Both the position numbers and the translations under genes were made by a program. From assembly GCA_029204225.1 (NCBI GenBank), contig CM055095.1, forward strand, positions 25,340,503 through 25,404,502: 64,000 nt of DNA, given 5' to 3'. Origin of the DNA: Diphasiastrum complanatum (Eukaryota > Streptophyta > Lycopodiopsida > Lycopodiales > Lycopodiaceae). Positions 29,061-64,000 of this stretch are shown here, piece by piece (position 1 is the stretch's first letter; every line of letters starts with the position of its first letter). Below the pieces are notes generated by a model, which saw only the letters and a program-made list of their open reading frames with translations, made no database searches and was not told the DNA's origin.

Positions 29061-30300
29061 TTAGGGTTAGGGTTTCAGGAACAGTACACAGGCAGCAGCA
29101 GGCCGTAATTTCACACGTGTGAAGAGTTTTGGAGCTAATTCATGGAGTTCAAGCCAAGATAAGCTAGGAATCAATGCATTGATTAGTAATCTAGCTTCTA
29201 GATCTTGTTTGGATCTCAAGTAGGCACTTTCTCCATCATTTCTAGGATCAAATGGGATTATTTTGTTGCATTTTTAACATGGTATTAGAGCCATTCCAAG
29301 AAATGAGCTTCACTTCATGCTAGAATCATAGATTTTGATGCAATTCAAGCATTGATTGCTATCTAGACATAATCTATGAGTAGTACCTTCAATTCTTGAT
29401 CAATTTGAGTGAAGATGGATCTAATGGTTTTTGATTTATAGGCTTTTTAGCTTCAAAATCTGAGTTGTGGTCATCTCTTATCAATTGGATCAAAGTAGCA
29501 ACAAGTATTTTGCACTTTCATCATATTGATGCTACTCGATTTGTGGAGTCTATCACAAGGAATAGTTTTCAATCAATCAAAAGGAAGATAGATCCTTATC
29601 TTTGGTACTGTAATAGGTTGTTCTTAGACTTATTGAGGCCTTAGAAATTCAATTTTGGGATCAGCCCAAAGACTTTGATAAGTGCTCATCAAGGAATGCA
29701 ATTCTAGTCAAGATTGTGTTCAATTTTTGCTTGATTTGTGAGATAGTTTGGATTGATTATTGCATGACGATTCAACCTGATCTTGTAGGAATGATTTGAA
29801 AAGGCATTTATGTGCATATGATTCCTTTTGGTTCAGGTTAGGTGAATCTTATATCCTTGTGAAGTCGAGATCAAGGAGGGGGCAATTCTAGATCCAATTT
29901 TTTATGCAAATTCAAGCTAGTTTCCATTCTTGTTGACATTCATAGATTTGATTTGGCTTAAGATCAGGTAAGATCTTATTGAGAGGTCAAGTTTTAAGCT
30001 TTCTCAAGTCCCTAGGTAGTGGGATAGTTAGTCTTTCAATCATTTATATTTTGCATCTATTCTTGTGATCAAGATCTTGTTTAAAGATAGATGGCTTCAA
30101 TGAATGCATATCTTTTGCAAGGGTGCTGCATTCAAGAAGAATCAAGTCAAAGGTGAAGATCAAGAAGGATCTTCAAGTCCAAGCTCGATCAAGCCAAAGA
30201 AGGATAAGTCAAAGATCAAATGCTACTTTTTTGGCAAGACAGGGCACTATGCCTCGGAGTGCTTCAAGAAGAAGCAATCTCAAAGTAAAGCAAACCTAGG
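29061..30300 (+). mobile_element. Ty1/copia fragment: LTR end, primer site, leader, gag knuckle
   Basis: LTR-like sequence ends TTTTTAACA (29279), followed by the primer site TGGTATTAGAGCC (29280-29292). A leader of about 800 bp follows. A plus-strand gag C-terminal piece with a zinc-knuckle-like CYFFGKTGHYASEC lies at about 30.2 kb. The fragment then abuts an oppositely oriented gag near 30.3 kb. It carries CACACGTGTG at 29112. It is broken and old. Confidence 0.75.
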
Positions 30301-32349
30301 CCAAGAGGAAGCTCTCCATCATAAATCTCTCTCCAATGGAAGCGAGCTCCCTATTTAGAGACTTGATTATGAGTACATAATCCTGTGCACTCTCCTCACT
30401 TCTCCTCATGCTTTGCAAAATTTGATTTCTAAGCTTAAGTACTCTAGAAGTGTTGCTTGATTCATAGATTGATTTTAAAGACTCCCAAGCCTCTTTAGCA
30501 CTAGTACATGCTGATACTTCTCTCAACAAATTATTGCTCACATTCATCTTCACACAATACAGTGCAACTCTAGATCTCTTCTTGTATTTAGCTAACTCAT
30601 GTGCACCTATAGGTTCATCTTCATGCTCAATCAAGAACTCATAAAGGTCTTGGAGCACCCAGAAGTGACTCCATCCTAACCTTCCAAATAACATAATTAG
30701 TAGAATTCAATCTCTCACTAGTTTTTAGAAGGTATGCTCCAATAGATCCCATCTTACTAGTGAATTTTACACACAAGAAATAGATTTGATTGACTTGTAA
30801 CTCACAAAGGTCTCACACTTGTAGTGTTTCATTCAAATTTGATTTCTAATCCAACAAATGGACTTATAATCACAGTTCTATCACTCCCTCACTGAGTTGG
30901 AATGAAGATAAGATGACGTGAAATCTACTTACAATCAAATCTTGCCAATTTTTCACTCTATTGACTACTCTTGAGAAAATCAATGAACACAATGTAGATT
31001 GAACTTTGATCCTCCCTCAGTTCTTTTCCAGAATTTTCCCACTATAAACTTATTTGAAATGCACAAATATTCAAGTAGCAAGATCCCCTTGATCTTGATT
31101 CAAAAGAACTTTTTGGAAGGATCCTACAAAACAGTGCTCAAGAAAATTGGTTTTGATTTGGATCTAAAAATTCACAAAGGTTTCACTTGGTCTTGATCAC
31201 CTCAAATTTGACTTCTAGCCCTCTCTTTGGACTTCTAGTCATAGTTCTTACACTCCCTCACAAAGATGAAATGAAGATTAGATGAGATTCTATCAAAGAC
31301 TTATCAAATCCTACCAATTTTCACCATTTTTGGACAAAAACATGACTAAATCTCCCTCACACTTTTTGATGTACTTCAAGACCTGTAAAACAAGTTTAGA
31401 GGACCTGATTTCAGCCTAGATTAATTAGATCTCATGACCCCATGTCAAAACTAATCAATGGCACTCAATCTTGGTAGCTTGTCCTAAGATTTCCACCAAA
31501 AATTACATCAACAACTTACAAATTAAATTTCTTTGGTTCAAATGAATTCCATGCATTAAATGCAGGTTCAAAGGTTTCCACACGTGTGAAAAGTACATTA
31601 TTTGCTTTTGATCAATGGTTAATGCTCTTGTACTTGGCTCTGATACCATGTGAAAGTACTGTACTTTAGGACCATAAATGGATCTACAAAAGATCCACAA
31701 GGGTGGTTGGATGCTTGCTTAACAATCTATCAAAAAACTAGACACAAAAAAGTTGATCTAGATTGGCAATTTGACAAACAACAAGCATTAACAATCAACG
31801 ACATTGATCAACAATGAAATCCGAGCCCACACGTGCAAGACACAGCCTAATGTATGGCCTATAGACTGAGAATGAAGTAGAAATCAATTTGGTTTCATTT
31901 GGATCACAAAAACTTAGTGTACATAGTGAACTAGCTTGAGATTGCCAATGAGCTCCAAAAATATTCTATCTTCTCACTATGGGAGCTTGGAATACATAGC
32001 AAATTCGACTTCCTTTGTGAAGTTAGGTGGATTTCCAGCATGTAATAAGGAAGTTAACTCAACCTTTTTGCCCTAAAATGAAACCCTAGTCTATTTCCTA
32101 GTGTCATGCTTGGTAGATAGCTAGTTGGTCAATTTTCACCTTAAATCTAGGATTTAGGTCCTATAAACTAGGAATCACTACCAAAATGACATGACCAACC
32201 CTATGGACTTGAACTAACCTATATTAGGAGTGGATTTCCATGTGGCATCTTGGCCTCACATGTGTGGAATCCACTTATGTACAAAATTTACATTATATTA
32301 CATGGTTTTTGATGAAGCTAGATTTGCCAATTTTTGGCAATTCTTCACA
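30296..32349 (-). mobile_element. Ty1/copia fragment: 5' LTR, leader and gag start, minus strand
   Basis: The 701-bp LTR (31649-32349) ends on the minus strand ...CTTTCACA against the primer site (complement of TGGTATCAGAGCC, 31636-31648). A leader of about 900 bp leads to a gag core at 30.30-30.75 kb (YKKRSRVALYCVKMNVSNN, SAKEAWESLKSIYESSNTSR). The rest is missing, and the fragment joins the plus-strand piece at about 30.3 kb. It is truncated, with a small number of breaks. Confidence 0.85.
31649..32349 (-). repeat. Copia LTR, left arm of a 700-bp inverted pair
   Basis: It matches 36630-37331 in reverse complement along its full length, with scattered differences. On the minus strand it starts TGTGAAGAATTGCC and includes the palindrome GCCAAAAATTGGC 10 bp from the end. 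Confidence 0.88.
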
Positions 32350-32739
32350 AATTGAGCCTAGTGCATAGGTTTTTCTTGATGGATTTAGATCATATAATGA
32401 TGAGAACACATGTCATTAGTAATGTTACATATAGTGTATATTTGATATTAAGATACAATTTCAATTCTTACAAAGAGAGAAATCACGATCTTACATGGAG
32501 TAAAAGTCAGATCCCGAAAATAGTATGTTATTTATTATCTCAAAAGTAGGTCCCACCTCATCATGTGCGTAAAATTCGAGGTGATGGACCATCTTAGGGT
32601 CTATATGTTAAATTTAGGCTTGCAGTAAGAGGGTAAAAGCCCTAAAATTTAGATCAAGAGTGAACATCCACGAATACCAAATGACTCTTCATTATCTTTA
32701 TCAAGAGAGCTTGAGTTTTTCTACTTTCAATACATTGTT

Positions 32740-35200
32740 TTGTGGCTGCAATTTTGACATTGTTTCATCGTCTCCACTCTGTCGTTGTTAAACAATGCAA
32801 TTTTCTATTTTCATTTTACACTTTCTTTTTAGTCTCTTGCTCTCCATCGCTCGCTGCTTTCGTGCTCGCTACCACTATTATGTCATTCTACTATCATTTT
32901 CGCCATCAAAATGGATGCAACTGCAAGCACCAGTGCAACTATCAACTGGAAAATCTATGCATCCATTCGACTTGCTTCAATTCAGTACTTACTAAATCGT
33001 TGCAAGTTGAGTAATTTGAAAGTGGATCCATCAATCGTGTTTCCAGAGATCAACACCGAGTTTGTTCACTCTATTCATACGGTGGCTAACTCTGATTTCT
33101 AGGTTACATTGCAAAATAACACCTTTACGGCTAATGAAGCTGCATTCTCTGAAGCCCTTGGATTTCCAACAAATGGGAGAACTAACGTCACCTCTAAGGA
33201 CTCCATTGATGAGGTGACTTATTTTTTATCGAACTGCTTGTACCAAGCAAAGGGTACAAGATCACCATGATGAGGGATGCATAGATGAAATTTTTCTACA
33301 AGTATGCGAACCAGGTGTTGTTCATTACTGATGCTGATGCTTCAATTTCAGCACAGAATTTTGGATATCTGCTAGATGCTCTGGCATGCCATCCAATATG
33401 CTTTGGTACTATAGCATACAAAGCATTTCTACGTTGGATCAAGAATAAAAAGTTTGCTGTAGTAGGAGCACATATCTCATGACTGTGTGACCATTTTGGC
33501 ATTCTTACATAGACAGAAGAAGGTATTTTAGCAGGAAGGATGCTGGCAGCAACAAAGACAGATTTATCGAGCCTTCTACAGGGTATCCCTGTTCCTCAAG
33601 ACCAGCTAGCAGCGGCCACAATCATGGAGGTGGAGGCCATGCCAGTATCAAGGGAAGCAGAAGAGGATGCTACTGCAAAACCCGTTACTGTAGACGGAAC
33701 TCTGGCTGTCGTCTGTATCACTGCCAAATCTTCACCGAAGCAGAAGGGCTCTGCATGCATGGATGACAAAGATACTATGTCCGATAAAGGCAAAGAGGTA
33801 GATGAGGAAGCTACTGACGCAGAGGAGGATGCAGAGGCAAATAAAGACAATCTTTACAGGTGGTACCACCGATTTTCCTTGGGTGCCAAGGACATTGTGG
33901 AGAAGATCCATGCTTATGACCTGCACATACAAGACATTATGAAGCAGATGTTCCACCAAATGGACGAGTTGAATAGCAACATCGCAATGTTATCTGAGCA
34001 AAATTCATCTATGAAAGTAGATAGCAAGATTTTAACTGAGCGAAATCGCTCTCTAGGCTGACTGCTCCAGAAGTCGAATGAGGAAGCACAACTTTTTCAA
34101 GATAGCAATAACGCACTTCAAGCCAAATCTGCCGAATTGTAGAGAAATTTTGATTCGCTGACAACCGAACTCAATAAGGTCAGTGTAGAAGAGGCTTCTC
34201 TGCAGACCAAGCTTCATGATGAAGGCATGAAGAGAATAAAGACAAAAATTGCCTTAAAACTATGTTGCAGCTCTGGTCTAATCCAGATAGATTCTTCAAA
34301 GTTGCAGTCTCTTCAAGACCAGATGCTCAAGAATTTTTGAGTTGACTTTCTGATTCCACTCGAGAATGACAAAGCAGTTGTCGAAGAGGAACTTGTTGAG
34401 CTGAAGGGGTTATCAGTCGAAACGACTACTTGCTCCGGGCCAGATGCACATGAAGAGTATTCGCAGGCCTTGGAGAAGATCAATGATTTGACAAAGCAGC
34501 TCCAGGCAACCCAAAAATGTACAGGAGTGGCAGATTACCTGGAGTATGAAGAAGCATGTATGAAAATTTTTGATCTATAGAAGGAGGCAGCAGACCTCAA
34601 ACAACAGCTTGAAGACCAAAAGCTCGATGTAGATATCCACAGACAAGACATTGTAGAAGCACAACCTAAACCAAAGCGACAGAAGAGGAATCAGTCTAAG
34701 GTATGTGCGGAACGCTTTCAAGTTTTTCCTAAAAAATTCTGGAAGTGGTGTCCTTGCATGTTAATGTTGAAATTACAATGGCATGTCGACTATTTGATGC
34801 TACCAGACACAATAGGCATGGCATTCAAGGATTGGCAGATAGAGTGGAACAAAGAAGACTTCCTCTGGTTATGGGACCAATTAAGCATAGAATAGAAAGG
34901 ATGTTTATGCTGGGCCATAATCCAAGGAAAGTTCAAAGTTATGCCATTCGGATAAGTGGAATTGTACATAGGCTCAACATTTTTGTATGCGCTGGAGTAC
35001 ATCCGAATAAAGGAGTACCAGTTTTTGTGGCATAACGACTCGAAGCAAAAGTTTTGGAGGAAGCATGCGCAGTTTAAGTTATATTCACCAGAAGGCCGGG
35101 CAAATATCGAAAAATTTGACGATGCGTCTGCTGTTGGATGTTAACATGGTGTATCCGGAGCTGTATAGTATCTACACCAATTGGGAGCGCAATTTTTCTA
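32740..35200 (+). pseudogene. Decayed coiled-coil ORF of plant mobile-element type
   Basis: Plus frames read as one worn gene. The N-terminal domain has IVFPEINTEFVHSIHTVANS, then LGFPTNGRTN and LDALACHPICFG, which resembles the plant mobile or transposon-protein domains found in many plant elements. An acidic linker follows, then a long coiled coil (33.85-34.65 kb; MDELNSNIAMLSEQNSSM, LQSLQDQMLK, DLTKQLQATQK), and a Trp-rich C-terminal region near 34.75-35.15 kb. It has several breaks. It lies between two facing copia LTRs and runs into a copia protease piece at 35.22 kb, so it may be cargo of a retroelement. Function unknown. Confidence 0.5.
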
Positions 35201-35219
35201 GTTATTTTGCAAAAATAAA

Positions 35220-37331
35220 ACACAATTTTCAGGGGGAGGAGGAGGATGAAGTAGATGTATTCTTGATGGCATGTCCATCCTCACCAACAAGCAATGGCAA
35301 TTCAAGAGATACATGGTGGATTGATAGTGGGCCCTCCGACATATCTTGTGAGAAGGACTTTTTCTCAACCTTACACTCATTCAATGATGCTAAAAAGTTT
35401 GTTTTTACTACAAGTGATGAAGAGTGTAGGATAGATGGTGTTGGTACCATCTCTTTGTATCTAGAATCCTTAATAAGTATGGATCTAGAAAATGTCCTTT
35501 ATGTACCATCAATCACCAAGTATATGCTAAGTAGTGTTGCTTTTGAGAGTGCGAGCTTGGCAAAGGAGGAGATCACTCAAGAGGAGATCTTGGCAAAGTG
35601 TGATCTTGCTTGCATTGAGGAGGAGCATCAAAAGGAGGAAGATCTTGAGGATCAACCTCAAAGCATGAGAGTTCCAAGGGAGTCCTCAATGACAATGGCC
35701 GAGTCATCAAATTGCATGCAAATTTGCCATTCAAGTGTGCGTCTTTCAAGGATGGTGAGCATTGGAGAGTCTACTATCTTTGAATACTTGTTGGATAGTA
35801 TTAGTAGACATGGAGTGACTTGTTGCTTATCTTTAACATCTATGATGTTTAGTACTCTTTATGACAAGACAATGAAATTAGATGCTTTCAAATCTTCATT
35901 TGTTGTTGATATAGAAATTTCATTGGATAACTATTTTTGTAATAGTTTGAATAGTGTCATAAAAGATGAAACACCATTTGTATTGAAAATCTTTGGGTTC
36001 ACATGCTTTGAGCATGATCATTCCAATGTAAGGACCAAAGATTATCCTATTTCAATGATAGGAAGAATGGTAGTGTTTTGCTCTTCAAGTAGAGATTGTA
36101 GAACGTTTCCCACCAAAGAAGTTGTCAATGGTGAAAATGTGATATTTCAAGAGTGGAAGATTTGTAAACTTGAAGAAGCACATTTGGATCAACACCTCAT
36201 TCAATTCATTGATGGTTTGGAGTCAAGTCAAGTGGAGGATCAAGCTCAAGATCCGAGGACTCCAAGAAGAACCTTGAGTATCAAGATGGAGTCGACTCAA
36301 TCATGTGGATCAAGCAAGGCAAGTTGTCTTTGGCAACATTATGTATGCACTTAATAGTTTATTTGATGTCTCTTCAAGTGCACAAAATGCCTTGGAATCC
36401 ATGGCTTGGCATGATGTTTAGTTTTGAAGTGTGCTACATGTATATAAACACATTTATGGAACATCTTGTAAGGGATCCTTTAAGAGAGGGTGAAAGATCC
36501 TTCATGGACGTCATTCTCTATTGGAGTCTCAAAAGTTCCTTGTTTGTAGCTAGATTTTTTAGACACTTCTAAAAGCTTTCATTCATCTATCGAGAGTTGT
36601 AAACAGATCAAGCTAAATTTGAGGAGGAGTGTGAAGAGTTGCCAAAAATTGGCAAATCTAGCTTGATAAAAAACCATGTAGTATAATGTAAATTTTGTAT
36701 ATAAGTGGATTCCACACATGTGAGGCCAAGATGCCACATGGAAATCCACTCCTAATGTAGGTTAGGTCAAGTCCATAGGGTTGTTCATTTCATTTTGGTA
36801 GTGATTCCTAGTTTATAGGGCCTAAATCCTAGATTTAAGGTGAAAATTGACCAACTAGCTATCTACCAAGCATGACTCTAGGAAATAGACTAGCGTTTCA
36901 TTTTAGGGAAAAAAAGGCTGAGTTAACTTCCTTATTACATGCTAGAAATCCACCTAACTTCACAAAGGAAATCAAATTTGCTATGTATTCCAAACTCCTA
37001 TAGTGAGAAGATAGAATATTTTTGGAGCTCATTGGCAATCTCAAGCTAGTTCACTATGTACATTGAGTTTTTGTGATCCAAATGAAAACAAATTGATTTA
37101 TACTTCATTCTCAGTCTAGAGGTCGTACATCAGGCTGTGGCTTGCACGTGTGGGCTCAAATTTCAATGTTGATCAATGCTTTTGATTGTTAATGCTTGTT
37201 GTTTGTCAAATTGCCAATCTAGATCAACTTTGTTGTGTCTAGTTTTTTGATAGATTGTTAAGAAAGCATCCAATCACTCTTGTGGATCTTTTGTAGATCC
37301 ATTTATGGTCCTAAAGTACAATACTTTCACA
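35220..37331 (+). mobile_element. Ty1/copia derivative: protease piece, odd ORF, 3' LTR
   Basis: The 429-codon frame around 35.07-36.35 kb includes a copia protease segment (WWIDSG, then DLENVLYVPSITKYMLS). Next comes a stretch of about 270 codons with no clear pol match, except a faint integrase-like piece near 35.98-36.15 kb (LKIFGFTCFEHDHSN). The purine tract GAGGAGGAG (36621-36629) and a 702-bp LTR (36630-37331) follow. No RT or RNase H is seen. It is an internally rearranged, non-autonomous element. Confidence 0.75.
36630..37331 (+). repeat. Copia 3' LTR, right arm of the inverted pair
   Basis: It starts TGTGAAGAGTTGCC directly after the purine tract and ends CTTTCACA. It is the same family as 31649-32349 but opposite in orientation. 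A third, more diverged LTR of this family lies at 38895-39340. Confidence 0.9.
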
Positions 37332-42707: not shown

Positions 42708-43445
42708 TGTTGAATTTCACACGTGTGGACTGTCCACTACATGTACTTGTGATCTCCTAAGGTGTGTAGATGCACCAAGATCAAGACTAGATTGAGATTC
42801 AAGATCAATCTTGAATCCTATGGCAAAAACACACTACTACATGCATTCAATCACTTCCAACTCTCACTCACACGTGTGGGAAGTATTTAAAAAAATAATC
42901 TAAGTAAAAACAAGCTGCTCTCCTCGGGTAGAGAGAGAAAATACATCAAGAGCTCTCGGGTAGAGAGAGAAAGCTAGAAATCCAATAACTCACAAAATCC
43001 ATGAAATCACCAAATCAATTGACTTCAAAATGAGGAGTACAATGATACTAGTAGGTCCACGAGCTACCACTATGCTTAACTATGATTGGACCACATTTTG
43101 TCACCTCTTGATCCTATTGGATCATTGATCTATGCACCTCTTAATTCTATTGGACTATATTCAAGCACACCTCAATTTCCTATTGGACCTCACAAGGTTC
43201 CACCTCTATATCCTATTGGACCTCTTGGAATTCATCAAACAAAAACTTTACACTTGTCTACACTCTAATTAGCAAGTGTTTAGCCTCTTACTCTATTTTG
43301 GCTCAATAGTGGCATTACAAGTGGAAATGCATAATTTGCCATCTATGCCAAATTTATTCCTATCAACATCCTACACCTAGATGCTTGATGTAAAAAACAT
43401 AAGACCCCTATATCTAACATAGATAATCTTTTTCAATTCTTCACA
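42708..43445 (-). repeat. Element B 3' LTR
   Basis: It starts TGTTGAATTTCACACGTGTG and ends CTTCACA. CACACGTGTG occurs at 42718 and 42869. A duplicated phrase, CTCTCGGGTAGAGAGAGAAA, lies near 42920-42975. Confidence 0.96.
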
Positions 43446-46400: not shown

Positions 46401-48205
46401 GTGTATATTGATTTCTTCACTCCATCATAAGGTGCAATAGAAGAGAAAGAGTCCTTGGAGCTACACATATGTGAAGAGGCTCCACTATCAATATACCATA
46501 GGCCGTCCTTCTTGAAAGGAGTAGATGAGAAACTAGAGACCATAAGAGATCCCTCTCCATCACTTGCAATAGTGTCTTCCTTCTCATTGGTAATATTGGC
46601 TTGCTTGAGTTGATTCTTCTTTTTGAAGCAATTGGTGGCATAATGACCTTTCTTGCCACAATAAAAGCACTTGATCTTCTTCTTCTTCTTGAGCTTGGAT
46701 GATGAAGCATTAGAGGAATCATCTTCGTCCTCATCTTTGTCTTTGGATTTGACTTTGTCCTTGCTTGAGGATTGTTGATGTTGGTTCTTGCTCCTCTCTT
46801 TGTGCTTATCCTTGGCAAAGAGAGCTTTGCCATCATTATGAGTGAGAGAAAGCTTGTCCATCCTCAAGAGCTTGTACTCTTGTCTTGATTCTTCTGAAAT
46901 TAGCACACTTTGGAGAGCCTCCAAACTTGGTAGCTCCTCCTTAATGGCATAGGATTGGACAAGATTATCAAATTCACTTCTCAAGCCATTGAGAATGACT
47001 TGAACTAGCTCATTTTGATTGATGGAATCACCAATACAAGCAAGCTCTCTATGAATATCTTTTACTCTCAAAACATAACTAGATGCACTCTCATCACTCT
47101 TTTGGCTACTTTGAAAGATTTGATTCCTAAGAGTGAGAAGACTAGAGGTATTCTTAGCCTCATAGATAGTCTTGAGACAATCCCAAGCTTCTTTGGCTGT
47201 TGTACAAGTACCTATCTCCCTCAATATCTCATTAGAGACATTCATCTTAATGTAGTGGAGAGCCATCCTAGCTCTCTTTTTGTATTTTTGAACCTCTTGA
47301 AGAACTTGTGGTTCTTCTTCAAGGCCAAGAACTATGTCCATCTCGTCTTGAAGGATCAAGATGGACTCCATCCTCATTTTCCAAATTGAATAATTTGAAG
47401 TGGTCAATCTTTCACTTGGTTCCAACAAGGATGAACCCATTGAAGACATTTGAAGTGAAGAAAACTCAAATGATGAACAATAAATGTTGTTACACACTTT
47501 CAATAGGATCCAATAATTGAGTACTATTTCCTCCTATGAAAGATCTTACAACAATTTGTGAATTGATTCTCACTAGCTACTCAAATCTCTCTAAAACAAG
47601 ATCTATTTCACATCAAATGATGGAGTATAGGCAAAGTTAGAATCTAACACTCTTAGCATGTGTGAAATACACTAAGAAACCAAACTGACTCAAATACAAT
47701 GATATTGCATGAAACAAAATGGCTAAGATCTCAAAACAGTGCCTAGATCACATATAGATGAGATTGGCAAGCATACAACTGTGATTTTGGATCAACCAAG
47801 CAATTTCTTGACCAAACCAAATGTGTCCACCCAGGTCTAGGTGCCCTAACTAACCCTCTTCAAAAGCTTATAACTTTTGATTGGCTCAACCAAATGGAAT
47901 GAAACTAATTGCAACAGAAACTAGACAAAAATAGCTTTAAAACAAGCTATCAAGCAAGATAAATGGATCAAACATGAGAGAGAACTTCCAAACTAAAATT
48001 GGATGTTCCTCACACGTGTCTGAGCACCTGATTCCGTACAGTATCAGGTCAGACCCAATCAATGTCCTTTTGATCTCTTTTGATCCAAGATTGAACAAGA
48101 TAGCTAGGAAAATGGGCCTTGACAACTTCTAGCTCAAGATTGATGAAAATTTTCTCACTTAGATGGATCAAAATGCATGGTAACCTTAGGTTGGATCTAA
48201 TACCA

Positions 48206-48942
48206 TGTTGAATTTCACACGTGTGGACTGTCCACTACATGTACTTGTGATCTCCTAAGGTGTGTAGATGCACCAAGATCAAGACTAGATTGAGATTCAA
48301 GATCAATCTTGAATCCTATGGCAAAAACACACTACTACATGCATTCAATCACTTCCAACTCTCACTCACACGTGTGGGAAGTATTCAAAAAATAATCTAA
48401 GTAAAAACAAGCTGCTCTCCTCGGGTAGAGAGAGAAAATGCATCAAGAGCTCTCGGGTAGAGAGAGAAAGCTAGAAATCCAATAACTCACAAAATCCATG
48501 AAATCACCAAATCAATTGACTTCAAAATGAGGAGTACAATGATACTAGTAGGTCCACGAGCTACCACTATGCTTAACTATGATTGGACCACATTTTGTCA
48601 CCTCTTGATCCTATTGGATCATTGATCTATGCACCTCTTAATTCTATTGGACTATATTCAAGCACACCTCAATTTCCTATTGGACCTCACAAGGTTCCAC
48701 CTCTATATCCTATTGGACCTCTTGGAATTCATCAAACAAAAACTTTACACTTGTCTACACTCTAATTAGCAAGTGTTTAGCCTCTTACTCTATTTTGGCT
48801 CAATAGTGGCATTACAAGTGGAAATGCATAATTTGCCATCTATGCCAAATTTATTCCTATCAACATCCTACACCTAGATGCTTGATGTAAAAAACATAAG
48901 ACCCCTATATCTAACATAGATAATCTTTTTCAATTCTTCACA
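48206..48942 (-). repeat. Element B 5' LTR
   Basis: It is virtually identical to 42708-43445, with CACACGTGTG at 48216 and 48367. Confidence 0.96.
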
Positions 48943-49030: not shown

Positions 49031-49863
49031 TGTTAAAATATCACTTCCAACTTGCTGTATCTTGTAGATCTCAAGTTATTTGAGCTTGATAGGATCTCAC
49101 ACGTGTGGAGTCTGTTCCCACGTGTGAAATAATGTACATAAGCCATTTTTATTAAGTTAGATTGGTTTTAGCTTGATCTACACTGGTGTGAAATTGACCT
49201 TTGAGTAGAATCTTGAAAATGGTCAAACTTTTTTGGACTTCCATGTGAATGAGTTATTACTCACACATGTCAAGATACCATTCACACGTGTGGATAAGCT
49301 TCTAGAAGATAAGATAGGAAGATTCCATTAGATTCTATTTTATAGGGAATATTCCTATAAATGTGGAAGACTAGCTTTTTGTTTTCTAGCCAAAGAGAAT
49401 AGTCAACTTTGGAAAATGAGCACATATGACTCCCATTGGTGGATATGAATGACTAGGCACTCTTCACACATGTGAAGGCCTGCTAGACAGTACACAGCTT
49501 GTGGATGTACTTGATCTATAATGAGATCAACCAAATCAATAACAAGTTGATGTGACATTGGCAAATTCTAGTTTTGTTGAGATTTCCACATTTGTCTTGA
49601 GTTTTGATGAATGAAATGCATTTTAATGTTAATGTACTTTACTCTCTGTAAATAGGCCATTCAGGTACTGTCCTCCACACGTGTGAGGCCACTTATCCAT
49701 GTTTTTGATCATTTGATCCATTGCTCTTGCTTAAATCATAGTGTAAAGCATCTAGATCAAGATCTAACATCTAGAACTTGATAGATCTTTGGATTAAGCA
49801 ATCCATAACTCTTAATGATTGATAGTACAATCAATATTTGTCCTTTTTCTCCAAAAATTGACA
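49031..49863 (+). repeat. Element C 5' LTR
   Basis: It begins TGTTAAAATATCAC and ends AAATTGACA against the primer site. CACACGTGTG is at 49098, 49283 and 49676, plus near-copies (for example CACACATGTG at 49465). Confidence 0.92.
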
Positions 49864-52800
49864 TGGTATCAGAGCCAAGTCTAAGAGTGATCTAAATGAT
49901 TAATAGTACTTAAGAAATCATTGACAATTTGTTGTTGTTGAGTTCTAATTGAGAGGGCGAGTTCAAAGAGAGAAGTAACATCATTGTTTTTGGTCAAGAT
50001 CGATTTGTGGGCTGCTGAAGTACTTTCCACACGTGTGAAACCATACAACAACCTTCAAATTAACTTCCATAAGTGTCTTTGACCCAAAAAAGTGCATACT
50101 AGTCCAAAATTCAAGGTTTTTAGTGCATTGTCTAGATCTAGGTTCAATCTATTGAATGCTAATGATCAAATAGTGATTTGAGTCATTGAAGTAATTCATT
50201 TTGAAGCATTAGATCAGATCTTTAAGGCTGATTTGTTCAGATATTAAGTGTGTGTGGAATATCAAACCAATTTGAACTAGAATCAATTCCTTTGTGGAGT
50301 GAATTGCTAGGATATTTGTAGTTGATCTATTATACCATCATCCAAGTTGAACTAGGATTGATTGGGCCAAGATTAGAAGCTTCTTGAAAGCTAGAAATCT
50401 ATCTTAGATCACACCTTATCAAGAGAACTTTGAGTGTCTCATAGGCTTTCGTTCAAAATGACATCCATGGGTGGATATATGCTAGAATCTAGTGAGAAAC
50501 TAACTTCCACAAACTATTCCATTTGGAAAGTAAGAATGGAATCACTACTAGTGGTTCATGATCTCTTTGATATTGTCTTAGGAGTTGAGGAAGAGCCTCA
50601 AGATCCCCAAGAACAACTAAAATACAAGAAGAGGATTAGATTAGCCCTACATTGCTTGAAGTTAAATGTAAGCAATGACCTCTTGAAGGAGGTGGCTTCT
50701 TGTACCACATCAAAAGAGGCTTGGGATTCGCTAAAGAACATTTATGAATCCAATAACACTTCAAGAGTGCTTATGCTAAGAAACTTGATCTTGCAAGGCA
50801 TGAGGGGAAGTGGAGAAAATGGACAAGAGTATGTCATAAGGATAAAATCCTTGAACAAAGAATTGGGATCTATAGGAGAGAAGATCCAAGATAATGAACT
50901 AGTACAAGTAATCTTGAATGGATTAGGAGATGAGTTATCTAATCTAGTTCAATCTTTTGCTATTCAAGACCAACTTCCATCAATTGAAAAATTGCATAAT
51001 GTTCTTGTGGCCGAGGAGAGTAGGATTCTACACCTCAAAACAAGAATGGGGTCCTTATCACTACATAATGGTGATGAGAAAGCAAACTTCACATCTAAAG
51101 GCAAGAAGAAGTCTCATCCTTTCAAGAAGATCCAAGGCAAGGAGGCCGAGGCAAAGGATGGAGCATCTACCTCCAAAGGGAAGCAAAAGAACAGAGCAAA
51201 GTTGAAGTGTTTCTTTTGTGGGAAGAAAGGACACTTTGCTTCCGAATGCTATAAGAAGAAGAATGCACAAGGGAATGAAGATCAAGGCAATCTTGCACAA
51301 GGGGAGGAGGAAGATGATGGATTCAACACATCCTTGATGGTAGCACCTACACCAACATCAAGCCAAGACTCATGGTGGATTGATAGTGGGGCTAGTTCCC
51401 ACATGCCATTCAACAAGCATTATTTCTCTTATCTACTTTCTTGCAGTGATTCTAAGAAATCAATCTACACAGCTAGTGATCAAGAATGCAAGATAGATGG
51501 CATAGGATCTATTCCATTATGCTTAGGATCTTCTAAAAGGATAGATCTTGATAATGTTTTGTATGTTCCATCCATTACAAAAAACTTGCTTAGTGTTGGT
51601 CAATCAATAGACAATGGACTAGATGTACATTTCAAGAATGGAGTGTGTTCCATCTTGAAAAATAATAAGTGCATAGCTAGTGGCATTAAGCAAGGAAGAC
51701 TTTTCAAGTTGGATGCTAATGTGGCTATTGAAAGTGTGAATATGGTTAGGGAGGAGTCGACTCAAGTGGAGCTTTGGCACAAAAGATTGGGCCATCCTAA
51801 TCTTCAATCAATGGAATCCATGGCATCAAAGGAGCTAGCTCTTGGCCTACCAAAAGCTTTCAAGAAGTGTGGCAAAGTGTGTGAGGCATGTGGCCTTGCA
51901 AAGTCACACAGGACTTTCTACAAGAGATCTTTAACAAGATCTACCTCACCTTTAGATCTTATCCATTCGGATGTACATAATTTTTCTCATGAAAGTAATG
52001 GAGGAGCTTCAATGTATGTGGCTTTTATTGATGATTGTACTAGATACACTTGGATTGAATTATTGCCTAAGAAAAGCCTTGTATATGAAGCTTTTGTAAA
52101 GTTTAAGTCTCTAGTGGAAAAGCAACTTAGTTCTTGCATTAAAGTTCTAAGATGTGATAATGGAGGAGAGTATATCTCCAACAAGATGAGAGACTTTTGT
52201 GAGATCAATGGCATTAAGAGAAAACTCACTTGTCCTTACACCCCCCAACAAAATGGGGTGGCCGAGAGGAAAAATAGGAGTCTTTGTGAATGTACAAAGT
52301 CTTTAAGACTTGATGCATCTCTACCCGTCACTTTTTTGGGGGAGGCCATAACTTGTGCTAATTACTTATGTAATAGGCTTCCTAGTAGTGCTATTGGTGG
52401 GATCTCACCATTTCAAGCTTTGTTTGGCAATAAGCCCAATGTAAAAGATTTTAAAGTGTTTGGATGTATATGTTATGTCCACATTCCTTTGGAAACAAGA
52501 AGGAAAGAAGATGCAACTTCCTTCAAAGGAATATCTGTAGGCTATAGTGAAAATAGCAAAGGATATAGGATATTTGATCCTATTCCAAAGAAAGTAAAAG
52601 TTAGCAAGGATGTCTTGTTTGATGAATCTCAAAGTTACAAGTTGTTTCCAAATTCATCTAATCTCTTAGGTGATGAAGATCTTGGAACACCCGAGGGAGA
52701 GTCTCTTGAAAGTGATCTTTTTGAAGATCAAAATTATGTGCCAAAGGAGCCGAGAAGATCCACAAGGAGCAAGGCCGAGCCTTCAAGGCTCACATACTTT

Positions 52801-54432: not shown

Positions 54433-55245
54433 TCTTAAAATATCACTTCCAACTTGTTGTATCTTGTAGATCTCAAGTTATTTGAGCTTGATAGGATCTC
54501 ACACTTGTGGAATCTGTTTCCACGTGTGAAAGAATGTACATAAGTCATTTTTATTAAGTCAGATTGGTTTTAGCTTGACGTACACTAGTGTGAAATTGAC
54601 TTTTGAGTAGAATCTTGAAAATGGTCGAATTGGTCAAACTTTTTTGGACTTCCATGTGAATGAGTTATTACTCACACATGTCAAGATACCATTCACACGT
54701 GTGGATAAGCTTCTAGAAGATAAGATAGGAGGATTCCATTAGATCCTATTATATAGGGAATATTCCTATAAATGTGGAAGACTAACTTTTTGTTTTCTAG
54801 CCAAAGAGAATAGTCCATTGGTGGATCTGAATGACTAGGCACTCTTCACACGTGTGAAGGCCTGCTGGACAGTACACAGCTCATGGATGTACTTGATCTA
54901 TAAAGAGATCAACCAAATCAATAACAAGTTGATGTGACATTGGCAAATTCTAGTTTTGTTGAGATTTCCACATTTGTCTTGAGTTTTGATGATTGAAATG
55001 CATTTGAATGTTAATGTACTTTACTCTCTGTAAACAGGCCATACAGGTACTGTCCTCCACACGTGTGAGGCCGCTCATCCATGTTTTTGATCATTTGATC
55101 AATTGCTCTTGCTTAAATCATTGTGTAAAGCATCTAGATCAAGATCTAACATCTAGAACTTGATAGATATTTGGATTAAGCAATCAATAACTCTTAATGA
55201 TTGATAGTACAATCAATATTTGTCCTTTCTCTTTGAAAATTGACA
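54433..55245 (+). repeat. Element C 3' LTR
   Basis: It matches the 5' LTR with scattered substitutions and two visible indels. CACACGTGTG is at 54694, 54847 and 55058. Confidence 0.92.
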
Positions 55246-55989: not shown

Positions 55990-57340
<1,351 letters not shown>

Positions 57341-58985
57341 TTATGGAATAGTCCTAATATGGTAGACAACCCTCGGATATTCGAGATTGTTGATTAAGCC
57401 TCAATCTAATATTATGTCAAGGCTAGTTTATAACTAATAACCTTGAGAGGACATCATTTCAGATGTATTATAATTAAAAAAACAATATAAAATTTTAATC
57501 TTGCAGATTTTTATGTCTTTATTTTCATAGCTAATATTTTTTTTTTGAAAAGTTTAAAAAATTAAAATATCATATGTTGGTCCCACAATGTTGTAACATA
57601 TGTTGTAATTTGTCGGTCCCACAATGCAAGTCACTCATGGTTTTCATGTGTACAAGTTAAATTTCAACTCATTTGCCATGACTTTTCATGACTTTTCATT
57701 GGATGGAGTGAGGCCTGCAGTGCAGGTCACCCTGAGGTGCATTCCTTAAGTAGAATCGAGATTGAACACCAATACCAATGCAATATAATGTAGACTTAAT
57801 GAAGACAATAACTTAAGCTAGATAGCTTTAAAGATTCTTGAAACTTAAGGGTGGACTTGTGATTTGAATATCCATACTAAATAGTAAATCTCTAATCAAG
57901 TGTCACCAATAGAATAAAGTGCTCTTATCATTTTACAAGCTAAAAGGACCATCAAGGACCATCAATATTATGAACCCTACACAATAATCAAATTCATCAA
58001 TTTGCATCAATATCATGAATCATTAAACTAGCACTATGTAGTGAATATTTAATGATCAATCAAATACTAAACTAATTCACCAACTACACTAAATAAAGAC
58101 TGTTTGACTTCATTAAAAAGGTAAAATCTACCTCAAAATAAACTTTGAGTGAGAAATGAAATGTCAAAAATTCAATGCTTCATTTCTATAACAATTATTT
58201 ATTGCAAATCCGGAAAAATCACTCTAATAATTTTAATGATACTTTGATGCATCTTTTAAAAATATTTTGAAAAATATCCAAAAAGTACCACTTAGTCTAA
58301 TGTGGCAGGTGTCTTTTATGGTATACCAAAACATTCATACCACAACATTCTTGTTGTTTTCTCAATTGAAGTGTTTTGTATTGTACTTATTCAGTGACTT
58401 AATTATTGTATCACTGAAAAGAATATTGGTCATTCACAATGATGTGGTTGAATAATGCTTAAGATAGAGTCCCATCAAGAGTACATCCATAGCACATAAG
58501 AATATTCATAGCTATGACCGCAAGCCCAATGCTCAAAGAATCACACATCAAAGTGCCATATCCATTTTGCTACTGATCTGAGATAGCTGAATGTGAATTC
58601 AAGTTTTTTCATAGGAATAATAAGTGCATATGAATTTGTATACCGTAATGAGATATTAGAAGATCAGCAGCTCATTTTGTGCTGAACTCTCACCTTTATT
58701 CTAATGATCATATACTTTTCCGGAAAACCAAATTACCGACTGCCTTGATTCACATGTATGACATTGCAGCTTATGTCTACTGATATTGCAGCTTATGTTT
58801 ACTGAGATACAGAAATATGCTTATTGTGTATAAAGCTAATACTTTTTTTCTCGCTCCAGTGCATGAGGTGTGCAGCTGAGCAACAAACAGGACATTATAC
58901 TAGTAACTGTACTGGCTATCCATTTGAAATCTGCTGTCAGCTGCGGATCACAGTATGAGCAGCAGCACTTAGCTGATCAGTGAGA
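57341..58985. other. Intergenic, includes the 3' side of the Root_cap gene
   Basis: I see no gene. Small tandem repeats occur near 57571-57637 (GGTCCCACAATG twice) and 58773-58810 (CATTGCAGCTTATGT-type). TTTATT at 58695-58700 reads AATAAA on the minus strand, 285 bp after the Root_cap stop, and could be its polyadenylation signal. Confidence 0.5.
58695..58700 (-). promoter_or_regulatory. Candidate polyadenylation signal AATAAA for the Root_cap gene
   Basis: This is the first exact AATAAA I noticed downstream of the stop on the minus strand. Plant signals are loose, so this is only a candidate. Confidence 0.3.
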
Positions 58986-59794
58986 TTAGCGACGGCAGAC
59001 AATGCCACGGCCTCCTGCGGTAGCTCCACCCAGTTCACTAGCACAAGAGATGGATGCAGGGTGCGTTGGTTCTGTGATGCTATCTGCCAAGGAGGCAAGA
59101 GATACTGAAGTAGATTTGAATTTTGATACAGCACAGTCGGGTTTCATCAAAGCCGACGCTGCAAAGTTGGATTCCCCTCCCATGATGGGCATGGCTACTC
59201 CCACCTTGACTGGGCTGCGGAAGGATGGCGCGTAAGTTTGGCCCAGCACGCCAGTCACATCGTCGGACAGGCCAAAAAACTTGAAGTTGATCTCCAGATG
59301 AGCGAAGCAATCCTCAGGTGTAATGCCATACCCGTGGATGCGGGATTCTTCCTCCAAGATGGGAACAACACGAGCAATGAGCTTGAAGCTCCCTGGCAAC
59401 TCCACAGTCATCGCATTTGTATCTGCAATGCGACTGATTTTAAGCTCAGCTGCATCCAGTTGGGATGCCCATGAAGCTCCCCTTTGCGCAGGAAGCAGCA
59501 CTGGGGTAGTGTCAAGGGTGAGAGTGATCTGATCCAGGGAGTCATCCCATATGGCTACCTTATTTGCACCGATGTAGAGCTGGTGGGATCCGAACATGAT
59601 GCCCAGAGACTGCACCCAAGTGAAGTCGCGTTTCCTGCCTGCTTTGCTTTTGCCGATGAAGTGGGCATTGATATGGAGGTTCGTGTCCGAGACAATGCAG
59701 AAGTCTGCGTCCTTTTTGCCATGGAAATAGAACATGATGCCATCGCCGCCGATGAAACGAGGATCCTGACACACAGCCCCAGGCTTGTCGCAAG
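58986..59794 (-). CDS. Root_cap gene exon 2
   Basis: From ACDKPGAVCQDP to ...GIVCRR and TAA, with one open frame of 269 residues containing all conserved Root_cap segments. Confidence 0.94.
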
Positions 59795-60167
59795 CTACAA
59801 AACATAAAACCTTCAAAATCTACAAATATTTGCATGTTGCATGCACTGATTGCATATGGCTTGCATGCATACAATATGAAATTGCATGCTCAGTTGTGAT
59901 ATGAACAGATATGTAATCTATAGATAGACTTAGCTTGGATTATGACATATGTATATTTTGATGGAGATGGGGTGTCTTACCGCAAATAGGCTTGCAGTAT
60001 GTGCAGTCGACTTCGCATTGTTTGGGGCAAGCAGCTGGGCACTTCTGCACCACTCCATAACAGCCTTTGAAGTATGGATCGGAACAGCTCGACGTCCATG
60101 CATCAGCTGCAGGCAACAGAAGACTTGCACTCACCAGCGCACACAGCAAGAGCACTATGGTATGCAT
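58986..60167 (-). CDS. Root_cap / LEA-related family secreted protein, two exons
   Basis: Exon 1 60167-59981 and exon 2 59794-58986 join (donor GTAAGA, acceptor TTTGTAG, phase 1) to give 331 residues. I chose the ATG at 60167 because it opens directly into a signal peptide (MHTIVLLLCALVSASLLLPA, cleavage about residue 22-23). Residues 26-71 are Cys-rich (CSDPYFKGCYGVVQKCPAAC, CEVDC..CKPIC). Then come the family's conserved segments: DPRFIGGDGIMFYFHGKKDA, DTNLHINAHFIG, FTWVQSLGIMFG, IWDDS, and the Root_cap core at about 198-250 (FKLIARVVPILEEESRIHGY, ITPEDCFAHLEINFKFFGLS, GVLGQTY). VAMPIMGG..F..S.L..PDC follows. The last 50 residues are Ser/Ala-rich and unconserved. Members are secreted plant proteins first described from root caps; the biochemical role is unknown. 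The gene appears intact. Confidence 0.94.
59828..59873. repeat. Intron copy of a 46-bp inverted repeat
   Basis: This lies within the 186-bp Root_cap intron (59795-59980). It is the reverse complement of 62081-62126, with about two mismatches. It is rich in GCATGC/TGCATG motifs. Confidence 0.88.
59981..60167 (-). CDS. Root_cap gene exon 1
   Basis: It encodes the signal peptide and most of the Cys-rich domain, ending ...CTYCKPIC plus one base. An in-frame ATG 40 codons upstream (60287) would place a non-signal sequence before the signal peptide, so it is disfavoured. Confidence 0.92.
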
Positions 60168-61500
60168 GCTACTAGACCTGATAGCTACAATGATAAATCC
60201 AACTGAACTCTCCACAGCCCCCACAGCACCAAATTCTATGACAGACTCAAAGAAAATTGGATGCTGCTCATTGCAGACTATCAGCAATGAATTGGGCTTA
60301 AATGGTGTTCAACTTTCCTTATCTCATCACACGTTTTCGAACCAGACGAAACTGATCACGGACTCTACAGGGCTACAGGCTATTCTTTGCTGGAGGTTGG
60401 AGGCTTGGAGCTTCCCCAATGCAGGCCGCTTGCAGCTTTGTGCGATAAAGGTAGTAAGTACACGAGCTGTATGCAAGGCAAGTGGCCCGTGGGTTGTACT
60501 CTTGTCAGATTGAGAGTGCTTTCATGTGATCCACTGAGAAAGTCAGATTCTATACACACTATACTTTAGGCCACTAGATCAGCTTCATACGACCTGCTTT
60601 TCAGTACATGAAATAAAACTGTTGTTGATTACCTCCTTAATTATGTTATTTGACGAGGAAGACAAAAACACAACTCTGAGCTATTTCTCAGTGTCTCACG
60701 CTTCCTGTCTAAATTTCTACCTGTGCTCGTAAAGAAGTTTCAAACCAGAACAAAACCCGCAAGATTTCTATGAAAGCAGCAAAAGTTTAGAATAAAACCT
60801 CAAAATGTGATATCTACAACTAAAACTAATTGATTTTGACCATTTAAAACCTGCAAATTTAAAAATGAAGCCCTTAAAATTAAAAAAATTGACCTGTCCA
60901 TATCAGGATCAAAACTGGCATAACAAATCAGGATCAAAACTGGCAATTGCTATCAATCATCTCTCTAATTTCGTGTACATCTCACGCGGGTCAACTTGTC
61001 ACATGTTCCTTTTGCTAAAATGACAGCCGGCATGATCCCCAACCTATGTCATCCACCATATTCCTATTGTCCCCATCACCAAGTCAATGTGATACAATAG
61101 TGTCATAGAAACTAATGGACTCCTATGATTGCTTAGCCTGAAACGGTGACCTGTAAGTGTTTGAAAGTGATGACATCTCCATATCCCACTCTCTCAATAA
61201 AACAAATTCTATCCAGATTTGGATATCATGATCCACTTACTAGTGAATTTTTTGATCACAAGAGACCTTGTGGCAAGACCTAGAGTTTTGTTGAGCTTCT
61301 TTGGAAAGGATGGTTGTGCCAAGACCTAGAGTTTTCTCAAGCTTCTTTGGAAAGGATGGTTGTCACCATGAGTAGTAAAATCTCTCTATTTATTTAAGGG
61401 CCATTACTCTTGTTTTTCTTGTAAACATCATCACGTCTTAAGTTCATGAGACCTCAAAAGGTAATTTCTTTTCCATTTTTTTTAAAAAACTTAGCAAATA
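60168..61500. other. Upstream region of the Root_cap gene
   Basis: It contains no other gene. TATA placement on the minus strand is not clear. CAAATCAGGATCAAAACTGGC repeats near 60900-60943. Confidence 0.45.
61272..61363. repeat. 46-bp tandem duplication
   Basis: Unit G(G/C)CAAGACCTAGAGTTTT...GGAAAGGATGGTTGT at 61272-61317 and 61318-61363, with a few differences. Confidence 0.88.
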
Positions 61501-61636
61501 GCTAAGACATTTTATCAAGTATGTAGGAAACTTGATATGCGATATAAAAACCATGATGATGTACAACATAATATTGAAATTCATGTAAATGCCGATTTTG
61601 GCAACTTAAACCAAATATGGGGGAACTTAACTTTTG

Positions 61637-61710
61637 GACACACATGCACATGGGCGCACGCGCACATACACACGCGCGCGCATGCGCACACACACACGCG
61701 CACGCGCGCG

Positions 61711-61746
<36 letters not shown>

Positions 61747-61759
61747 CTCTCTCTCTCTC
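61637..61759. repeat. Compound CA/CG/CT microsatellite
   Basis: A mixed (CA)n and (CG)n tract with ACACGCGCGCGCATGCGCAC-like runs is followed by (CA)n and then (CT)n. Most of it alternates purine and pyrimidine. ORFs across it (Cys/Val/Ala/Arg or His/Thr) are artefacts. Confidence 0.95.
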
Positions 61760-62149
61760 ATGGATAATACAACATTTTTAGCCTACTTTTCCCTTCTCAA
61801 ATTGTAGCGTTGCGGAATCACTTATGGACCAGGATTTATAATGGCAAATAACCTTGTTGAAACCCAAAAACCTTTTTTAACTTGTTCATGTGAAGATTAG
61901 TAAAATATTATCTTCCTATCTCGAGTTTGGGGCCATGTCCATGGTTATTCCCATTGTAATCTATGTTGTACATAAAAGGTATGTGAATTGAGCACATAAC
62001 CTTCTAGAATAGGTCGAGTTTGAGTTAGGTAGATTCAAATTTGATGACATGCAAAAGTTTAGATAGCATGCAATGTCTTTTTGTATGCATGCAAGCCACA
62101 TGCAATCAGTGCATGCAACATGCAAAGTGGTTTATGTGATGTACACATG
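61760..62149. other. Intergenic stretch with a CATGCA-rich inverted-repeat partner
   Basis: No ORF of note. 62081-62126 is the outer copy of the inverted repeat found in the Root_cap intron; nearby sequence to 62215 is also rich in ATGCA/CATGC words. Confidence 0.6.
62081..62126. repeat. Outer copy of the 46-bp inverted repeat
   Basis: TTGTATGCATGCAAGCCACA...TGCAACATGCAAAG is the reverse complement of 59828-59873, with about two mismatches. Confidence 0.88.
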
Positions 62150-64000
62150 TCCACATGTCTAGCCAATTTTATGAGTTGACATGCAGTACATGCAATATCC
62201 ATGCATGCAGTTACACATGTGGATCTCTGGTAGGTGAGTTAACTCAGTTAAGTCGACTTCCCATGCAACTCCACTGTAGGAATTCGAGTCTTTTTCATGT
62301 AGGGAAATCTTGGCATGTTTTGCCATATTGTGAATAATGAGATTTTGGTGTTTTGGACTCATTCTCTCTGTACCCGAGTTTTCTATCATTGATTTTCTCT
62401 CTCTACTTGAGAGCAGCCTGTTTTTCCCATATGGAGCACTTAGAATTACTTCTGACATTCAATTCTCATAGTAAGAAGTTAGATTTTTCAGTCAGATGTA
62501 TGCCATTGTGCCCTTGCCATAGATTTTTCAAGTATACTATTATCTGATCAATCTTGTGCAATCACACCACCTCAGTAAGATCCTGTAAGGTGTGTGGTGA
62601 AGTTCACACGTGATAAAAACTTCACATGGTATCAGAGCTTCATGCTTTGAAGAGGTGAGGGTGTATACATCAGATCAACAGTGCTTTTGCTTGTAAGAAC
62701 TTAGATTTGGGAGAGGGATTCAAACTCGTTGAGAAACAAGCTATATGTGGATCAAAACGATCCTGATCTGCTCTAGCAGGGCCCTGTATGGACAGAGAGC
62801 TCACACGTGTGAAATCAGCCCTCATTAATTGAGTGCTACTTCTCAAGGATTAATCCAAATTTGATGTATAGGTACTAAAGAGTAGAATGTGTTTCTCAAG
62901 TTTCTAAATCAATTTGATTTGTTTTCAGAAGAGTTTTAGGCAATCAGAGAGTTTGAGAGAGTACTCAACTCGTGGGATATGCCAAAGTGAGCACACATCA
63001 GTTCTTTTTACCAATTTTATCAATTTTCACCATCAATCAAGTAGAATTGGATAGAAGTGAGTATTCTGAGGTCTTAGACTTTCATTTCACACAAATTACT
63101 GTGTTTGAGTTGAAAGTAAGTTCCTAGAGAGTTTTTTAGTTCTTTGAACTCGTGGGAGAGATAGAATTCTTACTTGCATGTGCTTCATTTTTGTGACTAA
63201 AGCAAGATCCAAATTCAAGATAGATTGATTTTCTGTGTTGAGAGTTTGTTCTCACAATCAGTTGCTAGATTTCATAGGTTGGATCAACATCATCAGTGTT
63301 AGATCCTAGGTTGAGATAGCAAGCAACATCTTTCAACTCCATCTTTGTCATTACTAGAATTTCTCATAGAGAGGATTTCTTCATTTGGTTCACATTTCTT
63401 GGAGCATAGTGAGAGATTAACGACACGTCCGATGGATCGGGTTTATGTTTGAAGGCTCGTTCACGTCCGACGATGGATGCATCCGATGGAGGGAAGGCGT
63501 TTCTGGTTTATCCGATGGGATTAGTGCGAAGGCCTGGCTTATTGAATATAAATCAGAGGCCTTCAATCCGATGTGTTAATTTGATGTGCATCATGGATTG
63601 GATCAAAATTTATACGGATTTCATTAAAAAGGAGAAAACCCTTAGCATGGTTGAAAAGATTTATATAGACCTCTCAAATTATGCTAAACGAATTGCTGCT
63701 GAAGAAAGGTTTTGTAATAAGCATATTCGAAAAGTATTTGTCTGTCTGGAAAAAGAAAATGGTGACTCTTCTGCTGATACCCCTATCCCTACCACTGCTC
63801 CTACTTCACCTCACCCTTTGATATTTACCGAAGTCCTTGATGAAGACAATGCTTCTTAGTTAGAGTCCTTTTCACAGGAAATCTGTGATGTGGGAAATCA
63901 ATCTACCTTTGAATTTTGTCAGGCCAATAGTTGTCAAGTATCGTTGGTACCGAGTCGTATCATTGAGTTTAAATCTGCAAAGACTGCTTATAAACTTTAA
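62150..64000 (+). mobile_element. Start of a copia-type LTR element, runs off the window
   Basis: An LTR end, AAACTTCACA (62626), is followed directly by TGGTATCAGAGCTT (62627), a tRNA-Met primer site. A leader with CACACGTGTG at 62812 follows, then an ORF at 63449. The LTR start is not defined. No gag or pol domain is visible before the window ends, so the family rests on the LTR end, primer site and leader style. Confidence 0.6.
63449..63859 (+). CDS. Unidentified 136-codon ORF in the last LTR element
   Basis: The product has a basic start, a helical middle (IYTDFIKKEKTLSMVEKIYI, AEERFCNKHIRKVFVCLEKE) and a Pro/Thr-rich tail (TPIPTTAPTSPHP). No CCHC or UBN2 gag motif is present. It may be a gag-position ORF of a non-standard element or unrelated cargo. 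Confidence 0.35.
   Translation: MKARSRPTMDASDGGKAFLVYPMGLVRRPGLLNINQRPSIRCVNLMCIMDWIKIYTDFIKKEKTLSMVEKIYIDLSNYAKRIAAEERFCNKHIRKVFVCLEKENGDSSADTPIPTTAPTSPHPLIFTEVLDEDNAS

Follow-up and report, generated by a model that had tools for sequence, protein, structure and literature searches.

A palindrome array in one Ty1/copia lineage of Diphasiastrum complanatum and its candidate BES1/BZR1-type reader

Why does one ten-base palindrome recur across retrotransposons whose surrounding sequence has largely diverged between families, and what might read it? The question is raised by a stretch of 64,000 nucleotides from Diphasiastrum complanatum (assembly GCA_029204225.1, contig CM055095.1, forward-strand positions 25,340,503 to 25,404,502; hereafter the window, always at its full length), in which the word CACACGTGTG occurs in the long terminal repeats (LTRs) and untranslated leaders of copia elements. 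A preliminary description of the window had proposed that unrelated elements converged on one host regulator, a bHLH or bZIP factor binding the G-box CACGTG at the core of the palindrome. Here we describe a very strong, lineage-specific array of this single word. On the evidence of sequence we lean, by a little, towards an inherited cis-regulatory array that would be read as DNA by a dimer of the BES1/BZR1 type, the binding being predicted from the identity of the word with a published site.

Results

The window holds 14 exact copies of CACACGTGTG where dinucleotide shuffles give 0.01, and 20 sites at one mismatch or fewer where 0.85 are expected. The preliminary description had counted fourteen copies, judged them far above chance and assigned each to an LTR or a leader; all of this holds, the placement of the 14 sites resting on LTR pairs and on distance to the primer-binding site. 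Thirteen of its 14 coordinates are right, and the last copy lies at 62802-62811, not 62812. Because LTR pairs duplicate four sites (42718 equals 48216, 42869 equals 48367, 49283 equals 54694 and 49676 equals 55058), the copies are not 14 independent events; 10 distinct exact sites are left after pairing, and 54847 pairs with a decayed site, 49465, in the other LTR of the element here called C. The motif-bearing elements are Ty1/copia LTR retrotransposons, with gag, integrase ahead of a copia reverse transcriptase, LTR pairs and a primer-binding site of the type TGGTATCAGAGC, which we take to match the initiator Met tRNA. Element B encodes Retrotran_gag_2, Pol_BBD and rve domains, with RVT_2 in a second open reading frame (ORF); element C has the same domains in its gag-integrase ORF, and its copia reverse transcriptase was found by tblastn. 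That the LTRs were otherwise dissimilar had been overstated: LTR ends align at 64% identity over 343 columns between B and the 62-kb element, and at 61% over 297 columns between the 31-kb element and C.

The enrichment extends to the whole 1.745-Gb genome, where CACACGTGTG occurs 86,555 times and the reversed word, the control for this count, 1,886 times (46-fold), as the preliminary description had led one to expect. Together with the shuffles, the reversed-word counts rule out chance or base composition as the source of the copies. The related G-box palindrome GACACGTGTC has 6,144 copies against 838 for its reversed form (7-fold) and is thus 14 times rarer than CACACGTGTG. The form expected from decay of a single CpG, CACACATGTG, is found 35,805 times in forward and 35,973 times in reverse orientation, against 1,090 and 1,032 for the controls, so that 55% of intact plus decayed sites are intact. 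For the variant CGCACGTGTG there are 5,413 copies (reversed control 2,149), and for CACGCGTGTG, in which a change of the same kind, A to G, breaks the G-box, 1,524 (reversed control 2,930). In an arbitrary sample of 20 loci of 10 kb each, taken at 10 Mb on C1-C16 and at 40 Mb on C1-C4, 12 words were present in six loci. A copia protein match lies no more than about 850 bp from each of the 12; since 15 of the 20 loci contain copia matches, this closeness alone says little. The word makes up 12 of the 37 G-boxes in these 200 kb, and 26 of 62 when the window, itself chosen for the word, is added; in the combined set only AT repeats outnumber it among palindromic 10-mers. As the lineage spread, copies in the tens of thousands have probably been dispersed through the genome.

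How far the site extends was examined on 86 of 87 sites from the window and from loci L001-L068, most of them in the first 1.65 Mb of C1; L002, which overlaps L001, and one L022 site near an end were left out. Masking the word leaves 22 groups among the 86 sites, between which the 60-bp flanks cannot be aligned by blastn (20 groups at 100-bp flanks). With one member per group, read outward, a purine directly follows the 10-mer in 41 of 44 half-sites and occupies the second position in all 44; farther out any bias is weak at most (28 of the 44 have A or G at the third position). From the preference at the first two positions we take the site to be about 14 bp long, YYCACACGTGTGRR. At these two positions its halves appear to vary independently: Watson-Crick pairs across the palindrome number 9 of 22 at offset 1, where 11.3 would be expected under independence (C..A occurs in 6 of 22), and 11 of 22 at offset 2, where 12.8 would be expected, in a test in which the core cannot vary because the sites were chosen by it. 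A protein dimer bound to double-stranded DNA would be expected to leave such a footprint, symmetric but with independently varying halves.

Of about 2,080 six-letter words, CCGTAC shows the strongest enrichment in the 60 bp around the site, being present near the palindrome in 5 of the 22 groups where 0.19 are expected (P = 1.1e-6); ACAGTA, GATCAA, AGTACG, CAGTAC, ATCAAA and AAGTAC follow with P between 5e-5 and 2e-4. The background for these values was 1,638 windows of arbitrary loci and not LTRs, so LTR composition may contribute to the enrichment. GTAC is the core bound by SBP/SPL factors, and the CCGTAC/AGTAC neighbours suggest a composite with a GTAC-binding factor.

Many copies of the palindrome keep set distances from the primer-binding site. 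In U5 (the unique 5' region of the LTR) they stand about 168-171, 188-189 or 209-215 bp upstream of TGGTATCAGAGC, and leader copies follow it at about 146-186 bp; some families carry further copies 19-29 bp upstream, at +60 or farther upstream in U3 (the unique 3' region), and among the exceptions are -195 in L059, -311 in L063 and +234 in L065. Through at least one member, 14 of the 22 groups could be placed (5 in U5, 1 beside the primer site, 3 in the leader, 1 at +60 and 4 farther upstream), leaving 8 unplaced. Genome-wide, exact primer-binding sites are preceded by the word at 160-190 bp in 8,493 pairs, against 61 for an equally wide control interval of 110-140 bp, and followed by it at 157-187 bp in 4,368 pairs, against 36 for 72-102 bp, these being intervals picked after the sample had been seen, with large families dominating the counts and the 209-215 bp class uncounted. 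As lower bounds, the upstream and downstream pairs amount to about 10% and 5% of the 81,101 exact primer-site words in the genome.

Not every element with this primer-binding site has the word. Among the first 24 listed primer-site words, 4 carry the palindrome within one mismatch, all of them also found through the motif itself, and among 20 exact primer-site words taken in listing order and blind to the motif none does (in stretches from 650 bp before to about 260 bp after the primer-site word), which rules out its presence in all such elements. Primer-site candidates were also collected from the 20 arbitrary loci and the window, with CA required just upstream and two mismatches allowed. Here 15 of 27 carry the palindrome within one mismatch (10 of them exactly), or 10 of 18 (5 exactly) without the window. 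Of these 27 candidates, which were not chosen by motif, 7 have an exact copy at the U5 place and 3 a copy with one mismatch, and L014 has a two-mismatch relic.

A TATA-like word was found upstream of the primer-binding site in 8 of 13 elements scanned, at 346-378 bp in L003, L016, L028, L043 and L047 (with further instances at 767 bp in L043 and 731 bp in L047), at 508 bp in C, 546 bp in W29k and 764 bp in L022b; none was found in B, L026, W62k, L034 or W31k. From these positions, the U5 sites are probably inside the transcript. Palindromes farther upstream than the TATA-like word occur at -581 and -766 in C, at -403 and -553 in L043 and at -783 in L047; B, W29k, L003, L022b, L028 and others of the 13 have none there.

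As a separate observation, the interval G000:C1:17764069-17780698 holds U5-to-primer-site stretches that are alike over 80 bases. They follow one another at a spacing of about 5.45 kb and then change to the opposite orientation, a pattern that would fit an array, tandem or nested, or an artefact of assembly.

Are the bearers related? We compared 19 hand-picked copia fragments, covering gag, integrase and reverse transcriptase, from the window and the arbitrary loci, of which 18 entered the tree (L021 was too short). Five copia elements without the motif (L012, L019p, L019m, L023m and L028b) form one clade with support 0.984, and outside it stand the bearers, the bearers of decayed or near copies, one unplaced fragment and L014, which sits among the bearers and has only the two-mismatch relic, at -199. 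The motif bearers are one copia lineage apart from motif-less copia. When 11 U5 stretches with pairwise identities of at most 80% (mean 46%) were aligned, the palindrome fell in a single column, as it did for six leader stretches (52% identity); both sets were picked by the exact word and a rough distance, which makes the word constant by design and leaves the shared column only partly informative.

The tree, the fixed distances and the U5 alignment do not support the convergence of unrelated elements as it had been proposed, and in that form we reject it. From the distances to the primer site and the one-column U5 alignment, we infer that descent within a single lineage accounts for the U5 and leader sites, and that the additional ones, in U3 and other places, were gained later. 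The counter-proposal that all LTRs descend from one ancestor already bearing every copy fits the U5 and leader sites. It does not extend to the copies in U3, beside the primer site and at +60, which are not common to all families, so that one ancestor need not have had every copy.

The features of the window are collected in Table 1. One family is represented by an inverted LTR pair, 31649-32349 and 36630-37331, 94% alike around about 4.3 kb, with a CpG-decayed word in each (32257 and 36713). Elsewhere, a Root_cap-domain ORF lies at 58986-59819 (Root_cap is a plant domain), and AT dinucleotides alone fill about 130 bases at 55993-56122. Positions 1-4696, the most GC-rich part of the window, contain two direct repeats, each of about 900 bp, which are 96% alike, lie 3.8 kb from one another and lack the palindrome; they are followed by a weak copia gag match at 5252-5657. 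Tandem duplications occupy 2240-2755 (period about 252 bp, 95% alike) and 26243-26580 (period about 163 bp, 90% alike).

Table 1. Palindrome sites, primer-binding sites and LTRs in the window
Feature	Positions	Strand
Exact U5 site, 168 bp upstream of primer-binding site (29-kb fragment)	29112..29121	.
Primer-binding site, 29-kb fragment, 1 mismatch to TGGTATCAGAGC	29280..29291	+
Exact site, leader of minus-strand copia element, 60 bp downstream of primer-binding site	31579..31588	.
Primer-binding site, 31-kb element (LTR 31649-32349)	31637..31648	-
CpG-decayed copy CACATGTGTG within LTR of 31-kb element	32257..32266	.
CpG-decayed copy CACACATGTG within inverted partner LTR 36630-37331	36713..36722	.
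3' LTR of element B; exact sites 42718, 42869	42708..43445	-
One-mismatch near-copy, leader of B, 185 bp downstream of primer-binding site	48011..48020	.
Primer-binding site, element B, 2 mismatches	48194..48205	-
5' LTR of element B; exact sites 48216 (20 bp before primer-binding site), 48367 (171 bp before)	48206..48942	-
5' LTR of element C; exact sites 49098, 49283, 49676; near-copies 49117, 49465; TATAAAT at 49356	49033..49863	+
Primer-binding site, element C, exact TGGTATCAGAGC	49864..49875	+
Exact site, leader of C, 164 bp downstream of primer-binding site	50028..50037	.
3' LTR of element C; exact sites 54694, 54847, 55058; near-copy 54500	54435..55245	+
Primer-binding site, 62-kb element	62627..62638	+
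Exact site, leader of 62-kb element, 175 bp downstream of primer-binding site	62802..62811	.

Discussion

One exact word at several set places amid diverged sequence looks like the natural footprint of a controlling factor, and a host DNA-binding regulator, as the preliminary description supposed, would be the likeliest reader. Which one is suggested by the whole 10-mer. In a study of BIL1/BZR1 (PMC12668046), which cites structure 5ZD4, CACGTG flanked by C(G/A) and (C/T)G recruits this factor most strongly, and CACGTG between CA and TG, a 'perfect' site, is the probe; CACACGTGTG matches this 10-bp site letter for letter. Binding drops when the centre or both outer dinucleotides are altered, CATGTG being the best centre variant, and CGCACGTGTG is also among the strong BZR1 sites published there. 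The DNA-binding domain of BZR1 is conserved in land plants, according to PMC9478962. The bHLH or bZIP factor proposed at first can be sharpened to BIL1/BZR1, in view of the identity with the published top site and the relative rarity of GACACGTGTC.

We therefore picture, as a proposal only slightly better than even, the palindrome as the core of a cis-regulatory array inherited in one Ty1/copia lineage. A homodimeric host factor, of BES1/BZR1 type, would read the word on double-stranded DNA, each half-site separately, and its predicted binding would set the time and place of element transcription, with SBP/SPL factors as possible partners at GTAC. Copying of the elements would then have spread the sites.

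Several points weigh against this proposal. Besides the way in which the distance intervals were picked, the U5 and leader sites lie in putatively transcribed sequence, as a role in RNA would require; the U5 and leader copies of L043 are predicted to pair with a mean probability of 0.91; and Watson-Crick pairs at flank offset 3 are slightly in excess (8 against 5.5 expected among the 22 groups). Decay forms at the U5 place are more often TG (1,452) than CA (867), of which TG would keep U-G pairs in a duplex, so that this count leans towards a role in RNA, though a few places, such as C1:137300, enter both counts and the expansion of one family could also explain the excess. In addition, the excess of CGCACGTGTG over CACGCGTGTG fits BZR1 and equally any G-box reader, and perfect sites in Arabidopsis associate with down-regulated genes (PMC12668046), which leaves the sign of the effect either way; the array might thus restrain as well as activate.

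The palindrome could accordingly be a signal at the RNA level, a self-complementary 10-mer serving dimerisation or packaging of the genomic RNA or forming a long-range stem around the primer-binding site, which the U5 and leader sites bracket at fixed distances. We consider this rather unlikely. Eight stretches were folded, and mutual pairing of two exact copies was predicted in only one of the four that hold two, so that a U5-leader stem does not look general; W62k, W29k, L022b and L028a have a single site within one mismatch. The flanks are reverse-complement symmetric without covarying at the two informative offsets, and a stem, by its nature, would accept any complementary pair and not one word in 22 contexts. 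Some sites also lie upstream of the TATA-like word, though such an RNA would carry U3 again at its 3' end. A double role of the palindrome, in DNA and in RNA, is possible.

Less probable still is that the same array serves another G-box reader, either bHLH (PIF, MYC, BIM) or bZIP (ABF, GBF, HY5). These families share the CACGTG core, the CpG-decayed form retains an E-box, and the surplus of CGCACGTGTG would suit any of them; yet the outer CA..TG is exactly what the BZR1 assays single out (PMC12668046), and the palindrome GACACGTGTC is far rarer. That the word has no present function, having hitch-hiked from one ancestor and been multiplied by copying, seems to us very improbable. The bearers do form a single lineage, copy number alone could yield 86,555 words, and the constancy in the aligned sets follows from how they were chosen; against this, about 14 bp are common to 22 non-alignable contexts, single elements carry several sites at non-homologous places, and some candidates chosen blind to the motif still keep the U5 site exactly, within one mismatch or, in L014, as a relic.

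The preferred reading, in which a BES1/BZR1-type dimer would bind the array, can be carried further, to a version that we find doubtful though possible. In it, the whole copia lineage would be tied to the brassinosteroid factors BES1/BZR1 through its inherited U5, leader and U3 array, and would by its own copying have come to hold most of the genome's top-affinity BZR1 sites, in the tens of thousands; these could draw off the factor as a sink or supply new hormone-responsive promoters, and the RNA duty may apply as well. Should BES1/BZR1 be the reader, a growth hormone would be linked to transposon activity through mobile top-affinity sites in the tens of thousands, and nearby genes could have been rewired.

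Retrotransposons with host control words are already known, and LTRs bearing host factor sites are a known kind; the layout over several places and many families, with the exact word of a hormone factor, is apparently an undescribed variant. In the open-access literature, outside which most subscription papers lie, we found no earlier report of such a word or array, with CACACGTGTG and TCACACGTGTGA included as search words, nor, in the same literature, of an array of BZR1/BES1-type or G-box palindromes in retrotransposon or copia LTRs. One paper retrieved on transposable elements and DNA affinity purification sequencing (DAP-seq) describes no such lineage in the part available.

Among known systems, the BBRE (BZR1-BAM responsive element) presumably has the same core word, and we know of no link between it and transposons. 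It is named for the BZR1-BAM proteins in PMC8008075, the available part of which does not give this word. Identical in sequence is the perfect BIL1/BZR1 site (5ZD4; PMC12668046), a 10-bp homodimer site joining the G-box with halves of the brassinosteroid response element (BRRE); the published case concerns promoters of host genes, whereas here the site lies in retrotransposon LTRs and leaders and has an outer YY..RR preference that does not come from that paper. Retroviral dimer-initiation palindromes likewise stand in the 5' untranslated region, near the primer-binding site. The present array differs from them in that it also occupies U3, has informative flanks that do not covary as RNA pairs would, and repeats one word at several places per element. 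ONSEN/ATCOPIA78, with its heat-shock elements, and Tnt1, with its U3 boxes, are copia elements whose LTRs are switched on through host factor sites, and in bearing putative sites of this kind the elements described here would be alike; unlike them, the lineage of Diphasiastrum has the word in U5 and the leader as well, at set places and across many families, and the factor predicted to read it is hormonal and not a heat-shock factor (HSF).

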